A model generated the notes under the pieces. The model did not search any database and was not told the origin of the DNA. It saw only the letters and a program-made list of their open reading frames with translations. The position numbers and the translations under genes are program-made. This document shows positions 43,043 through 63,820 of a DNA stretch of 64,000 bases, one piece after another; the stretch's first letter is position 1; every line of letters starts with the position of its first letter. Location: assembly GCA_029641185.1 (NCBI GenBank), contig JAPWGK010000014.1:248001-312000 (forward strand), written 5' to 3'. This DNA comes from Pseudofabraea citricarpa (lineage: Eukaryota > Ascomycota > Leotiomycetes > Helotiales > Dermateaceae).

Positions 43043-46000
43043 ATGGGATTCTTGCCACCCAGCGATTTCAACATCGAGCGCGTCTACCCCATCCGGAATC
43101 TCGTATCCCATCAGGAGGAAGGAGAATCGCATGAGGAAGACGATGGATCTGTACGGGGTGCGCCGAACCCATTCGTGTGACATATATTGACATTGGCAGG
43201 ATTCGCAGGCGAGCGGTAAAGCCCAATCAATCCCCAAACCTCCACCATCGCCCGGAAACAGCCACAGTACTGGAACCGACGACAGCACTGAGTCGCGAAA
43301 AATTTCAGAGAGGTTCAAGCTGCTGCCGTCGAAAACTGGGGCGCCGAATGTATTACCTGGCGCGGGAGCAGATAATGAGAAACCCGCTTACCGACGATGC
43401 GAAGACGAACCCATTCATATACCCGGAGCAGTTCAGTGCTATGGTGCGTTGGTGGGCCTGAGATACAGCGCAAAGAGTCAGCTAGAAGTGAGGATTGCGA
43501 GTGAGAATACGCGAAAGGTATTAGGTTATGGACCCGAACAGCTGTTTGCGCTGCCATCTTTCCTGGAAATTCTGAGCGGTGATGCTCGCGACGAGATGGT
43601 GGCACGGGTCGCTCATGCGCTGGCAAATGCTGGCACCATGGGGGAGGAGACTCGCTTGGATATCTTCCAGATGGTCATTACGTTCCCATATGAGCCCGAA
43701 ACCCGGCTCTGGTGTGCCATTCATGCAGCACCGAGTCCGAAAGGCCTTGTGATTTGCGAGTTCGAGGAATATGCAGATGCCTTCTACCTGAAAGATGTTA
43801 CCACCGCCAACGTCTTGCCAGTAAATATGGTCAGGTCCACAGGTGTCGAGGTCTCGCCGGAGGAGTTCCGGAAAAGTACACAGAGTCGGAGCCAGCCGCT
43901 ACCGGTCATCAAGATTGCGAGACTAAGAAAGCAAAAGGAGTTCTCTTCGATGGATATCTTCAACGCAATGACACAATCTCAAAGACAGTTGTCCAGTGCC
44001 AAGTCGGTACAGGAGATATTCGACGTGGTTGTGGGCATCATTTCGGAGCTGACTGGGTTTCACCGAGTTATGTTTTATCGGTTTGATAGCCAAAAGAATG
44101 GATGTATAGAATCGGAACTACTAAACCCACAAGCCAGTAGTGATATCTATAGAGGTATTTGTTGCTTGCTCCCATTGGCGCTTGCATACTAATTTGCTTC
44201 TAGGTCTTCATTACCCAGCTTCTGACATACCAAAACAAGCTCGAGACTTGTATCAGATAAACCGGATTCGTATCCTTCATGATCGAGATGCAGAAACAGC
44301 TAGGCTGGTAAGACATTCTTTGATGGTTTTTGTGTTGTAAAAAACTTAGATCTTTCGTAAGTAGAAATGATATGCTAAATTAGGTATTTCAATAGGTCGC
44401 CAGGAACGAAACAGATTTTGAACAGCCACTAGATCTAACACATTCATACTTGCGAGCTATTTCTCCAGTACATATCAAGTACCTGACGAATATGGGCGTC
44501 CGATCCACCATGTCAATTTCGATTGTGATTAACGACGACCTGTGGGGTTTGATAGCATGTCATGGGTACGGAGATTTTGGTATTCGAGTATCTCTTCCCA
44601 TCCGTGAGCTCTGCCGAAACATCGTAAGCTACTCTTGTCTTGCATTTGTCAATCCCCTCTCAACACTATACCGTGTGCTGACTTTTAAGGGTGAATGTGC
44701 TGCTAATAACATCGAACGACTTCTAATGGTCCAGCGTATTGAAGCACGCAAACCATTAATTACGCCACCACCAACACACCATCCAGCAAGCTTCATTGCT
44801 GCATCATCAGCAGATTTGCTAAGGATTTTCGATGCAGACTTTGGGTTAATCAACATTCAAGATGAGGCAAGAGCAATAGGAAGGCTAGATCCTTACAGGG
44901 AAGCGTTGGCACTTCTTGCTTACATTCAAACCTCTCAATGGAAAACCGTTCGATCATCGCAAAACATCAACGCCGACTTCCCAGACTTGAAATACAGTCC
45001 TGGTCTCCAGATAATTTCTGGGTTGCTATTCGTTCCGTTGGGCATCGGCGGAAACAACTTCTTGGTATTCTTTAGGAAAGGGCAGCTCAGAGAGGTGAAG
45101 TGGGCGGGGTATGTTCAAAGACCAAATCCCAAATCAACTAAGCGAACAGAACAGTGAGATTTTGCTCCATTCACGAACGGCTTTTAGGTCGATCTTATTT
45201 GTTCTAGGCCGGTTCTGGCTTCACAGCATTGGAAGCTGACAGCTAGTCGCAGGAATCCTTACCACAAAAGCTACAAGCATGGGAGCGAGTATCTCGAGCC
45301 AAGAACCAGTTTTAAACGTTGGGTTGAGACTATCTCAGGACTGAGTAGAGAATGGACCGAAGATCAACGTGAGATGGTCGATGCCAATGATTTCCTAAGC
45401 TAATGCAAGTACCGATAGTCGAATCGGCATCCGTATTGAGTCTTTTATATGGTAGATTTGTCGAGATCTGGAAACAAAAGGAGTCAGCTAGTCAGAACAG
45501 TCAAATGACTCGACTTCTAATTCGCAACTCTTCTCAAGAAGGTATATTGATTCCCTCATTTTCAAAGACATCTATGGAGGATTCAAGTAGTCGACTAAGG
45601 GGGTTTCGATATTGATGAAGTCCCTCACTAACACAATGAATAGTCCGAACACCATTGAAATCCATAATCAACTATCTTGAAATGGCCCTCGAAAACAACC
45701 TCGACGAGTTAACGCGCGAGATCTTGAAGCGAGCACTGAAAGCTTCATCCTCGCTGATATACACTATTGACGATCTCTTGAAGCTTACTAAAGCTGAGGA
45801 CGGACCCGTCTATGCGATCAAAGACAACTTCAATCTAAGCAAAACTGGCAAGTCGACATCTCGAGATATTTACAGCGTTGTTAACGGTTTACAGTGCAAG
45901 AAGTCGCCAGCGTGTTCCAGAAAGAGGCAGAATTCAAGCGGTTGGACCTTACGTTCACAACACATGAAGGTATTCCTGAGATCGTCAAGGGTGATCCAAC

Positions 46001-47367
46001 TCGCCTTCGAAAAGTCATCTCCAATCTGACAAGTAACGCCTTTCGACATTCCCTCGACAGTGGTGTTCGGGTCGATATTCGCCCAATCAAATCCGAAGAC
46101 GCTAGCTGCATAATAAGCATCTCAGTTCAAGATGCCGGGCCTGGCATGTCGGAAGCACAGCTCGATGTATACAGATCCTCGTCACCTTGTAAAATCTTAG
46201 CTAACAATCTTAGGACCTCTTCCAGAGCTTTGAGCAAGTTTTAGATGAGGATGATAACTTATTGCCTAAGGCCGAACCACCAGCCGACAGAACGGAACAG
46301 GCATCTAGTATCGGGGTCGGGCTTTCCCTCGTCGCCCGCTACGTACGCAATATGAATGGGCAAATCCGAGTCAAGAGTGAGCTCGGTAAAGGAACCATCT
46401 TTGCAGTTGAACTACCGTTCGATCATGCAACATCGCCGGGTTCTACACCACCTATAGGGCTTCCACAGCAGCCTAGCAGCAGCCTCGCAGCATCAATGAC
46501 ACCTCGACCACAAAGCGAGCCAGCAGCAGTAACGCCGTCGGATCTCCCACCGTTCATGAAGAGCGAATCACTAGGCCCGAAGCAGATTCTGAAGGTGATC
46601 GAAACTCGAACCCATCTCGAGGGGGACTTCTCGCCGCTTACTGATATGGAGCCTTTTGGGACGACGGCAGCAAGTGGCGAGTATGATCAAGCCATCAGTC
46701 TAGCCAGCTCAGAAACTGAAGACCGTTCTCAGTACCCGGGACTAGATGAGGAGGGCCAGTCGACGCTGGTGCATCTGCGCATCCTGGTGGCTGAAGACAA
46801 CCCCATCTACCTCCGACTCTTAGACAAGCGTCTCAAGCGCCGCGGCCACCAAGTATATCTTGCCTGTGACGGCCAAGAAGCTTACGAGTATCTGGTTTCA
46901 GACCCCGGTCGCGTCGACGTTATCTTGATGGATTTACAGGTGCGTGCTTGGATCATTTGGGAGATAGAGTCCTGTTGTTGTGATATGAGGCTGACCTAAG
47001 TCACAGATGCCGTTGGTTGACGGAGCTCTGTCTACGCGCATGGTGAGGTACAACGAGCAAGAGCAATACGATAAGGTCCTAGGACCTAATAATAGACCGC
47101 GACAGAGGGTCCCCATCATAGCCGTGTCAGGACATCTAGAAGAGGAGAGCCGGTTCGATTACATCCAGAGCGGGTAAGCATCATCAATCCCCCATCAAGA
47201 GCTGTCGAACTGACGCGTTGGGTTGTAGTTTTGATGGTTGGATCGTGAAACCTATCGATTGGTCACGCTTGGATTTCATGCTCCAGTGTGTCAAGATACC
47301 AGAGTTGAGACGCGATGCCATCTACGTGCCCGGGACTTGGGATCAAGGCGGCTGGTTCATGCCGTAA
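43043..47367 (+). CDS. Fungal phytochrome, hybrid histidine kinase (H-box His replaced)
   Basis: Eleven exons (43043-43150, 43200-44154, 44204-44307, 44396-45108, 45253-45368, 45419-45541, 45644-45847, 45895-46166, 46214-46939, 47007-47173, 47229-47367) give 1208 residues. Intron 7 has a GC donor. Bilin-binding Cys103 is in RCEDEPIHIPGAVQ. The GAF domain is shown by YPASDIPKQARDLYQINRIR and SPVHIKYLTNMGVRSTMSISI. The PHY tongue is EPRTSF. The transmitter has N-box NLTSNAFRHS, G1 DAGPGMS, G2 GVGLSLVARYV. The receiver has acceptor Asp1105 in MDLQMP and Lys in VKPIDW. The H-box reads NSSQEVRTPL, with Gln705 where the phosphoacceptor His belongs. The protein should sense red/far-red light via biliverdin. 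Autophosphorylation is doubtful. The first exon and exact start are the least certain parts. Confidence 0.93.
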
Positions 47368-50689: not shown

Positions 50690-50725
<36 letters not shown>

Positions 50726-50747: not shown

Positions 50748-52987
50748 TTACTCCTTTATTCCTCCTCCTCCTCCTCCAAAAGTATTATCAGAGCTTTCAG
50801 AACTTTCAGAACTTTCAGAACTCTCAATACTCTCAGTACTTGGAGTGCTTCCAGGTTGGAATGGGAATTTATCATCATATCGTTTACGCAAAGACTCTTG
50901 TAAACTGATCGTATCACTCTTCTGTTCTTGAAACAGAGAACTGTCCCACTGAGAACTGTCCGACTGAGAAAGATAATCTGGCGTTCCGACATCTTTCTTC
51001 TCTTCGGGGAAGATAATATTGGAAATATCTGGTCGTGGATGCTTGGCATACCTTTGGGTGTAGAGTCTGGCCGCCTCGCAATACCCCTCATAGTCCTCGA
51101 CGTACTTTTGAGCAATCTCAGGCACTAAAGGATCATCAACATCTGGTGACGCTAGGAGACCACAGATTGCTGTGAGTAAAGCACCAAGTGTCCATCGTAT
51201 TTCTGTAGATTTTGCAGAGAACCAAACGTCAGAAGGGTCACGTACAGGTGGAGTACCATATGATAGCACTGATTCCCATTTTTCTCGATAATCCGCGCAA
51301 ATATGACCCTGTGGTGATATGTTGGGATGGTAGACCCTCGTATGGAACTTCATCATTGGTAGTCCCTTTGGCTCAGACTCTGGTATTGTGACTGCGATCC
51401 AAAAGACTCCTCCTTCGTATGGTGTATCGGGTGGGCCTTCAATACTAGCCAGCACCTTGTCGAGCCTGTCGTCGATGGCTGTAGCGCTAACAAATGGAAC
51501 TTTGCCAGATTTGATTTTTCGTAATTCAAAGAACATTCGTTTGGTTGCTGATGAGCCATTCGACGCATTTGTAATAAGTTTCGTAGAATTATTTATCCAA
51601 TATTCTTCGTCGTGCCTTTTGAAGGGTGCAAGCTGACTTCCATAATTCCTGTCGCCTGAACTAAATGACAGTGGTCTTCTGATATCAGAACCCTTGAGAA
51701 CCCCAGTGAGAATACGCTGATTTTGTGATATGGAGGATCCATCTGTTACCGTTTCAGATTGTAATATTGGCGGGCGTGAAACTTCTTGTACATGGCGATT
51801 CTGTTGCTCATTGATTTGGAAGCTGCATTCTCGCTGCAAAGTCCAGCACCTGTCGCAGCTCTTGTCATTTTGGTTCGAATGAGCTCCAGCATCACACTTG
51901 TAGTGTTCCTCCCTACACTGCTCACAGGGTAACATTGGCTTAACCTTCCTTCTCATCCTTTGTGCAATAGGGATTTCGGGTTTGATCTCATGTTGCTTAG
52001 CATCACGCGGCCACGAACCAGGAATTTGCATGTCGAGACTTGATTGATGTCTTGAATAAGAGGAAGACATTGATGATAAATCTCTAATGATGAAGTTGTC
52101 TTCCTGGTACATTGGATCTGATATGGATGCAGGCGTATATGGAAGGAACCGAGATGGCGCTGTTCTGAAAGATGTGCCACCACTTCCGACCAAAGACGAA
52201 GAGGCAAGTGTTTGTGATTCCAAAATCGATTCTGCGACCTGTCTAGTAAAGTGCCGGCTTGACGAAGTGAGGATAGATAGATGAGATGATCGATGGCTTG
52301 AGGAAGCATCGTGAAGTAACTTCAGGTCCTGAACATCAGCGATACTTTCTATTTCTTCTTGAAGTCGAGCATGTTGTTCTGCCAAGAGACCCAAAGACTT
52401 GGTAATACTCTCCAAACCATCCACAAACTTCTCAAGGCGATCGATCATGTCTTCAAACCTTTTAGAATCGTGTACGGCCCAGCGCGTGACATTCCAAGTT
52501 GATGTGTTCTTCTGGTGGCTCCGAATACGAGCTTTGAAGCGCTCAAACGAGGGCTTGAAGACATCAATTCCGCGGGCTCTGTGAATTTTCAAATCATGAG
52601 ATTGTTCTGCAAGTAACGCATAGCGTTGATCAATATGACCTGCGTCTTCAAGTATAGATTTTATATTGTTCAGTATGCGTTCCAAACCGAGATTGATATC
52701 GGGCCGATCGAGTGTCTTCTCATATTGTAAACGACGTCCACTCGCAGGGTCGGGAATCAGACCAACGGATTCACCCCAGAGCCCAAATCGTGCTCGTTGC
52801 AAGGAGAACTGTATGCATGGTTAGAATAGAATAATAGCCAACGAGAGGGAAATCTCACAAGTGCACAGAGCTGCTCATAATCATCGCTGAAATTTCTGCC
52901 TGCGACGATGACATCAAAGCACTCCATACAGGTCGAGAAGAGGCCTGCAACGCCTGCAACGCCGAGAACAAGGCCAGCTGCCTCCAT
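50748..52987 (-). CDS. HeLo domain - six-Cys cluster - E2 ubiquitin-conjugating (UBC) fusion protein
   Basis: Two exons (52859-52987 and 50748-52808) join over a 50-bp intron, giving 729 residues. The N-terminal HeLo-type domain (PF14479-like; about 1-215) opens with a glycine-rich helix (GLVLGVAGVAGLFSTC), then RARFGLWGESVGL, as in HET-S-type proteins. Residues 338-371 carry six cysteines spaced C-x2-C-x6-C-x12-C-x2-C-x6-C, like a Zn2Cys6 cluster. Residues about 463-632 are an E2 domain: TPYEGGVFW, YHPNISPQGHICAD with HPN at 537-539 and putative catalytic Cys547, then LLTAICGLLASPDVDDPLVPEIA. An insertion of about 20 residues follows the catalytic loop. Ser/Glu repeats and glycines end the chain. 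HeLo domains act in fungal membrane-linked cell death. E2 enzymes carry ubiquitin. A signalling link is inference. Confidence 0.92.
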
Positions 52988-57034: not shown

Positions 57035-58316
57035 TCACACTGTCTCGGCCATGGCACTGCTCTTCCGCTCCCTCTCACTCATCGCAGCCACGTCCGTATT
57101 CGCAGCTCCAGCACCAGCACCAGATCCGCCCTCCCTCCTCTCCGCCGCATGCGTCTCCCAGAACCTCTGGTTCATATTCCGGCCCTTCATCAAACCCACG
57201 ACATCAAAGGGATCAAAGATGGTAACGAGAAAGTTCCGCTTGTCCTCATAGCCCTCGCCCTCGATCTCGGTATGGCCATCCTCGGCGAGGTAGATCTCGT
57301 TGTTGCGGGGGAGGAAGCGCATCGGGTGGCGCGAATTGAGGAGGAAGGTGTTGCAGACCATGAGCACGGCCTCGAAGACCCAGAACCACCACTCGTAGCG
57401 CAGGATGATGGAGACGTCTGATTCTCGCAGGCCGGCATCGAAGTGCAGACTCGCCGTCGAGAAGTACTCGACGGTGCGGAAGATGGTGCGCACACAGATG
57501 AGCGTCGTCGAGATGTAGAGTGTCGTGAGCACGGCGCCGAGGTTGGATGGGAGCAGATTCGCTCGGATGCATTTCCGATGGAATGATGCTGCGAGCAGGA
57601 CGAAGAGGCCCAAGATCACTAGCTGTAAGATCAAGGCGGATTTCAAGAGCGATCGTCCCATTGATTGTTTACTCTCTGGGAGAGATGTGTTTGCTGTATA
57701 AGCGGCTCCATTGGCGTTCAAGGCTTCGACTACACTAGACAAAGCTGCAAAGGTAGTAAGAACTCGGCCAGGGTGGATAGGCGAGTGGTATGGCACATAG
57801 TAGAGGATTCGCGAGAGGATGAAGTAGTTTGCTAACTCATATAGGGGTCTAACACTGATTAGCCTGCTTCGCATAGATGCAGAGGATATCCCTCGTCGCT
57901 TGGATTCGGAGAATACTACTTACGGCGCCGCGTACAGCAAGACGACGCTAGAGATGAAGACGTCGATATTCCCATAATCGAAAGCGCCAATCTCCCGCAT
58001 GATATAGCCTCCGACGAATATCATGGCCGACCACGGCAGGATCCCCGTCACCTTCCAGCACCTGTAATGTCTAAAACTCGTCAACGGATGTTCTCCGCCT
58101 GCTACCAGTCATGGCCGACTTACATGCATAGGTAGATATGCCACAGTCCCGACGCGGCAAAGAGAAGTGCGAAAACCACAGGCGCGGCTTTGTTCGGAGC
58201 GTAGAAGTACAAGCTTCCCTCAACTAGACTCGCCGTTTAGCTACGCATACCCAATCTATATCAAATCAGATCAGCTCCGCAAAGGAAAAATACCCACCGA
58301 ACTTTCCGTCTTCCAT
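57035..58316 (-). CDS. RTA1-family seven-helix membrane protein
   Basis: Four exons (58298-58316, 58124-58223, 57924-58070, 57035-57848; introns 74, 53 and 75 bp) give 359 residues. The first exon has only six codons. Several hydrophobic helices are visible: PVVFALLFAASGLWHIYLCIHY, then WSAMIFVGGYIMRE, then NIDVFISSVVLLYAAPPLYELANYFIL, then ALILQLVILGLFVLLAASFHRK, a conserved TLICVRTIFRTVEYF helix, and an aromatic EWWFWVFEAVLMVCNTF helix near 270. These match the RTA1-like family, implicated in fungi in lipid or sterol export and stress tolerance. The C-terminal tail (about 280-359) is cytoplasmic-like and charged. The function of this member is not determined. Confidence 0.93.
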
Positions 58317-63797: not shown

Positions 63798-63820
63798 CCC
63801 CCCCCCCCCCCCCCCCCCCC
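63798..63820 (+). repeat. Poly-C tract of 23 bases
   Basis: A second long C run, outside the supported exon, about 13 kb from the first. Confidence 0.85.

Follow-up and report, generated by a model that had tools for sequence, protein, structure and literature searches.

Does a single fungal gene join a HeLo domain, known from cell-death proteins, to a ubiquitin-conjugating (E2) domain, and what might such a protein do? The question is raised by a locus of Pseudofabraea citricarpa that lies in a 64,000-nucleotide stretch of contig JAPWGK010000014.1, referred to here as the window, whose positions are used for all coordinates below.

RESULTS

A two-exon gene encodes both domains

The HeLo-E2 gene was found at 52987-50748 on the minus strand, where two exons encode a protein of 729 amino acids (aa). 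The initial annotation had given the same limits, which stood, but no strand, which was established here; its two-exon model with a first exon of 43 codons was also borne out. Exon 1 (52859..52987, minus strand) is a stop-free frame for residues 1-43, i.e., the start of the HeLo domain including its hydrophobic N-terminal helix, and it is followed by a GT donor at 52858 and a 50-bp GT...AG intron (52809..52858, minus strand). Exon 2 (50748..52808, minus strand) encodes residues 44-729 and the stop codon in an open frame.

Three overlapping protein searches (the best 120 of 142, the best 120 of 166, and 41 of 41 matches) gave 158 different relatives. The exon junction is read straight through by 34 of these 158 listed relatives, as judged by a junction pattern in the first 90 residues, while those without the pattern are truncated, differently modelled, or divergent at the N terminus. 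We also found a second HeLo-Zn-E2 gene in the same 44 Mb genome, on contig C34 (G000:C34), which is 36% identical to the first over 721 aligned positions and has a 68-bp intron at the same residue. The read-through relatives and the intron of this paralogue support the predicted exon junction.

The fusion might have been explained by two adjacent genes merged in the reading, or by a pseudogene, but we rejected this and give it practically no probability. The linker, the E2 domain, and most of the HeLo domain lie in one 690-codon open frame, both domains were listed in 136 of the 158 relatives (precomputed Pfam matches to HeLo and UQ_con), the paralogue shares the intron site, and HeLo and E2 diverge together (see below). 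As had been expected initially, the fusion is thus no joining artefact, and from these sequence comparisons the HeLo-E2 architecture is near certain to be real.

A poly-C run of 33 bases lies just 3′ of the gene (50691-50723), and a second one, of 23 bases, is found at 63798-63820. Also in the window are pieces of a phytochrome-like gene on the plus strand (43191-46996; PAS_2, GAF, PHY, HATPase_c, and Response_reg) and an RTA1-like gene on the minus strand (57038-57919). We recognized no NLR domain in the 20 scanned of the 35 window open reading frames of at least 150 aa, in which short exons can hide domains, and no prion or amyloid family among the Pfam families matched the HeLo-E2 protein at an E value of ≤1. 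The usual activation route of fungal HeLo proteins is therefore not visible at this locus.

The HeLo domain resembles that of HET-s

The HeLo-like N terminus that had been noticed initially was confirmed by both a Pfam profile and a sequence match to HET-s. The domain covers residues 5-208 and spans the intron (52314..52975, minus strand); its match to PF14479 (E = 8.1e-49) scored 166.7 bits against a curated cutoff of 23.2 and covered profile positions 1-205 of 205. In a PDB sequence search, the domain matched the solved HeLo domain of HET-s (2wvn, E = 2.5e-24). A structure-based fold search was made with the relative P0001 as the query in place of the window protein, and its result lists were filled by E2 matches.

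HeLo domains work at membranes via their N-terminal helix, according to passages of PMC12881547 and PMC10197012, and the former describes the N-terminal stretch of HET-S as the membrane-attacking part. The corresponding hydrophobic stretch of the window protein lies at approximately residues 1-19 (52931..52987, minus strand), with a mean Kyte-Doolittle value of 1.58 over the 19 aa from residue 4. A like stretch was located in 55 of the 158 listed relatives by a search pattern that itself demands hydrophobic residues. Within the domain, Lys135 is a lysine in 92 of the 106 listed relatives with a residue there, and Lys143 in 84 of 107. These conserved lysines need not be ubiquitin sites, since HET-s also has a lysine at the Lys143 position in the 2wvn alignment.

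Of the ten HeLo loci of the genome, all but C12:2124742 and C34:211989 were examined. Among seven other frames scanned, six carry HeLo: three together with DUF7580, one with no more than a weak kinase match, one with a Ras-association (RA) domain, and one by itself. In L002, L003, L005, and L006, DUF7580, weak kinase matches, or both come after HeLo, which is an MLKL-like layout; L008 (G000:C8:1142028-1142576, plus strand) has HeLo and then RA in one open frame. Another E2 of the genome, in L025 (G000:C9:570292-570504, minus strand), shares its frame with a preceding von Willebrand factor A domain.

The E2 domain is apparently active and has altered active-site surroundings

The E2 (UBC) domain extends over residues 463-632 (51042..51551, minus strand). 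It has the UBC fold of the E2 class, as indicated by a UQ_con match (PF00179) at residues 471-626 (Pfam, E = 2.6e-23), and its best PDB sequence match was UBE2D1 (2c4p, E = 8.7e-26); by sequence, it is of the Ubc4/5-like type. The E2 motifs pointed out initially are all present, with HPN beginning at residue 537, the catalytic cysteine at Cys547 (codon 51297..51299, minus strand), and DPLVPEIA beginning at residue 602. Cys547 is a cysteine in 117 of 120 relatives, the other three having gaps, and the HPN histidine and D602 are kept in 118 and 115 of the 120 listed relatives, respectively. This retention is consistent with selection for catalysis, and the E2 looks like an active enzyme. It is also the best-kept part of the protein among the relatives, with an identity to the query of 0.51 to 0.77 per block versus 0.35 to 0.63 in the HeLo domain.

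Behind the catalytic cysteine, the family has an insertion of its own at residues 560-582 (51192..51260, minus strand) with a near-invariant Trp572, which lengthens the region beside the active site by about 20 residues relative to Ubc4/5-type E2s, and an extra helix is predicted immediately before the E2 core. We also looked at the equivalents of Pro95 and Phe62 of UBE2D, which we take to be E3-contact positions. The position assigned to Pro95 is a proline in only 10 of the 120 listed relatives, and that of Phe62 has kept an aromatic residue (F, Y, or W) in 45 of 120. An argument for reduced E3 contact from these positions is weak, because the Phe62 equivalent is often aromatic, these loops are loosely aligned, and the UBE2D roles are presumed.

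The HeLo-E2 family is widespread and its two domains have diverged together

Apart from the 136 relatives with both domains, 21 of the 158 listed relatives have UQ_con without HeLo, all from the sources jgi, lgn, or ena only and perhaps truncated models, and P0096 is listed with HeLo and SAM. When 18 relatives were rescanned with Pfam, the HeLo match preceded the E2 match in all 18, the E2 of P0096 being present as a sub-threshold remnant only. Among the 158 matches listed, we saw no E2 of this family with another N-terminal domain or with NACHT/NB-ARC. The best match among those listed was from Phlyctema vagabunda (59%), and the named sources that we looked up included further Leotiomycetes (Botrytis and Xylogone, besides Phlyctema), Sordariomycetes (Hypomontagnella and Paramyrothecium), and Cladophialophora of the order Chaetothyriales (Eurotiomycetes). 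Judged by these sequences, the architecture is widespread among the fungi fetched.

Pairwise distances of the HeLo and E2 domains were correlated (n = 79; Pearson, 0.78; Spearman, 0.70), and 0 of 500 permutations gave a value as high, indicating that the two domains have been inherited as one unit. An E2 tree was built from the 80 rows with both domains long enough, including the query and its paralogue. In this tree, the window protein pairs with that of Phlyctema (SH-aLRT, 98), and the pair belongs to a clade of 37 rows (SH-aLRT, 99). Three rows, P0156 to P0158, have long branches and split off separately from the main family, and they might have captured an E2 independently. The HeLo domain of L008, itself on a long branch, stands next to the fragmentary row P0143 in the HeLo tree, where the family is therefore not strictly monophyletic.

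The six-cysteine segment is lineage restricted and has a nonbasic loop

A Zn2Cys6-like segment lies at residues 338-371 (51825..51926, minus strand). Its cysteines, at 338, 341, 348, 361, 364, and 371, have exactly the C-x2-C-x6-C-x12-C-x2-C-x6-C spacing of Zn2Cys6 domains (PF00172), and the Zn_clus match (residues 337-378, E = 0.0012) reached 19.3 bits, below the curated cutoff of 21 bits. Each of the six is kept in 59 to 63 of 120 listed relatives. The first loop is acidic or neutral, with a mean net charge of −0.7 (range, −4 to +1) in the 54 of 158 listed relatives that match the pattern, versus +4.7 (range, +3 to +6) in the control, which comprised the 30 best-scoring of 150 scored Zn_clus loci of the same genome and leans to canonical members. 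Since the basic first loop, presumably the DNA contact of Zn2Cys6 domains, is lost, DNA binding is unlikely and that reading is disfavored; a putative zinc-held, protein-binding knuckle is more likely.

All 24 rows labelled for the segment, the query and paralogue included, fall inside the 37-row clade of the 80-row E2 tree, and on this evidence the segment is lineage restricted. The label requires seven changes on the tree, indicating losses or missed patterns within this clade. What the initial annotation had called a zinc-cluster-like center acting as a binding module is real and conserved as a center, within one lineage and with a nonbasic loop, and a binding module is a possible role.

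C-terminal tails are diverse and include repeat arrays

The tail of the window protein is rich in serine and acidic residues and has no repeats. Pfam gave no TPR, ANK, or WD40 repeats in it and no NACHT/NB-ARC match at an E value of ≤1, so neither feature of a fungal NLR was found in the query. NB-ARC and NACHT were likewise absent from the 18 rescanned relatives, and the precomputed Pfam matches of the other listed relatives are to HeLo and/or UQ_con only. A short motif at residues 675-692 (50862..50915, minus strand), resembling DxxSLQxSLRxxYDDKFP, was matched by 22 of 144 listed relatives, and it seems to be partly repeated in P0002. We considered it as a ubiquitin-interacting motif and rejected this, as it does not conform to the consensus of such motifs.

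TPR or ankyrin arrays follow the E2 in 6 of the 158 listed relatives, all six of which were rescanned: TPR in P0021 and P0026, and ankyrin in P0022, P0040, P0104, and P0110, all of them predicted proteins. P0021 has seven full TPR units with a mean identity of 90%, and highly identical repeats are characteristic of fungal NLR sensors. On this basis, the TPR and ankyrin members resemble NLRs in which the E2 replaces the nucleotide-binding domain. In the P. citricarpa genome itself, L084 has NB-ARC followed by TPR families of the same kind as those in the TPR relatives.

Other tails, as found on rescanning, include DnaJ in P0047, a protein kinase in P0087, and SAM in P0096; C2H2 occurs in P0150, and WW occurs ahead of the E2 in P0033. 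P0042 has a PPIP5K2_N domain after HeLo-E2 and may be a merged neighboring gene model, and by this example the domains seen in single cases (P0087, P0047, P0096, P0150, and P0033) may be model errors as well. Many other relatives have long tails without listed families, those of P0046, P0051, P0064, P0084, P0103, and P0133 being similar to each other.

DISCUSSION

The sequences establish a HeLo domain, an E2 with intact catalytic residues, a conserved fusion of the two, altered active-site surroundings, and diverse C termini; the function of the protein is inferred. We consider it most likely, at about even chances, that the protein is an effector of the HeLo type carrying an E2 in cis, in which ubiquitylation of itself or its neighbors controls a death or defense output. 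Triggered by a partner or by the variable C terminus, the HeLo domain would expose its N-terminal helix, move to a membrane, and cluster. Clustering would pack the charged E2 domains together and concentrate E2-ubiquitin beside HeLo and the membrane, and ubiquitin could then be passed to HeLo itself or to neighboring membrane proteins with hardly any need for ordinary RING E3s. This transfer may tune, license, or execute a cell-death or defense response. In animals, according to passages of PMC8816944, K63 ubiquitin chains are attached to the HeLo domain of MLKL once the protein has oligomerized, and these redirect it. In Podospora, 7 of 8 further HeLo proteins were upregulated during incompatibility, and the genes upregulated in both Podospora and Neurospora were enriched for ubiquitin-degradation domains, according to passages of PMC3689799. 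Speaking against the effector are the absence of a prion or NLR activation route among the Pfam families matched and the window frames scanned, and the nonlethal roles that HeLo domains also have in passages of PMC8816944. The coupling of ubiquitin transfer to a death or self/non-self response that was suggested initially is accordingly a hypothesis.

The HeLo domain could instead be a membrane anchor or oligomerizer only, with the E2 serving trafficking or quality control by modifying targets at membranes or vesicles, and no death function at all. This would fit the E2 being the best-kept part of the protein and the joining of HeLo to other modules in the genome (DUF7580, weak kinase, and RA). 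However, the query has the hydrophobic N-terminal stretch, and those fungal HeLo domains that have been tested were reported to be membrane targeting and cytotoxic in passages of PMC12881547; a plain anchored E2 is conceivable but rather unlikely. The E2 might also be a restraint, whose steady self-ubiquitylation would keep HeLo scarce or vesicle bound, so that a block of the E2, e.g., by a parasite, would free the death activity as in a guard-type trap. By analogy, the passages of PMC8816944 agree with this, as ubiquitylation of the MLKL HeLo domain turns MLKL away from killing, and necroptosis rises somewhat when its E3, ITCH, is lost. Sequence features do not tell restraint from activation, however, and we regard the restraint as improbable.

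In a bolder form of the cis-E2 effector, the HeLo-E2 proteins would be a class of their own among fungal immune receptor-effectors, with HeLo as the executioner, ubiquitin loading and transfer as the switch, and the fast-changing C terminus as the sensor, for which TPR, ankyrin, kinase, J-domain, SAM, or unassigned sequences would be the candidates. We propose this doubtfully. If true, the part played in NLRs by the nucleotide-binding switch would fall to the E2; the relatives bearing TPR or ankyrin repeats suggest such an NLR-like arrangement lacking a nucleotide-binding domain.

The HeLo-E2 architecture is apparently undescribed and present in databases unremarked. We found no description of it in the searchable full-text literature, a scope that subscription papers and preprints lie outside, and it is absent from the ubiquitin passages of PMC9815663, PMC10197012, PMC4986451, PMC12258605, PMC12881547, and PMC3321046; the part of PMC6525431 that names both Pfam accessions has them in separate categories only. 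The architecture was unfamiliar at the initial annotation and was likewise not met in this literature, but it is no one-off, as a whole family exists. In animals, HeLo/MLKL-type death proteins are known to be controlled by ubiquitin in trans, whereas here the enzyme and the putative executioner form one polypeptide. The fusion, kept in many related fungi, suggests that ubiquitin control is wired directly into a death or defense protein, and a single cysteine change would suffice to test the link between ubiquitin transfer and membrane-active death.

Among known systems, HET-S/HET-s of Podospora anserina shares the N-terminal HeLo domain with its hydrophobic first stretch. Unlike the window protein, HET-S carries a prion-forming region at its C terminus, and its activator is the neighboring NLR NWD2 (passages of PMC10197012 and PMC12881547); here, an E2 follows HeLo, with no prion family matched at an E value of ≤1 and no neighboring NLR domain recognized in the scanned frames. 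Compared with UBE2D/Ubc4-Ubc5, the E2 has an insertion of some 20 residues behind the active site, in which a tryptophan is near-invariant, less well kept E3-contact positions, a HeLo domain and linker in front, and a predicted extra helix before the core. MLKL likewise has a HeLo-type domain followed by a signaling-enzyme fold, but that fold is a pseudokinase and MLKL is ubiquitylated in trans by ITCH, whereas the second domain here is an E2 and no kinase family matched the query at an E value of ≤1 in Pfam. BIRC6/BRUCE is similar in being a cell-death regulator with an E2 of its own, and it is reported to ubiquitylate pro-apoptotic factors. It differs in being a giant IAP protein that inhibits apoptosis and is not known to have a HeLo domain. 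Finally, fungal NLRs of the HeLo-NACHT-WD40 and HeLo-NB-ARC-TPR types (passages of PMC3321046) also have HeLo at the N terminus, and six of the 158 listed HeLo-E2 relatives share their C-terminal TPR or ankyrin arrays; the difference lies in the middle, where the HeLo-E2 proteins have an E2 instead of a nucleotide-binding domain.
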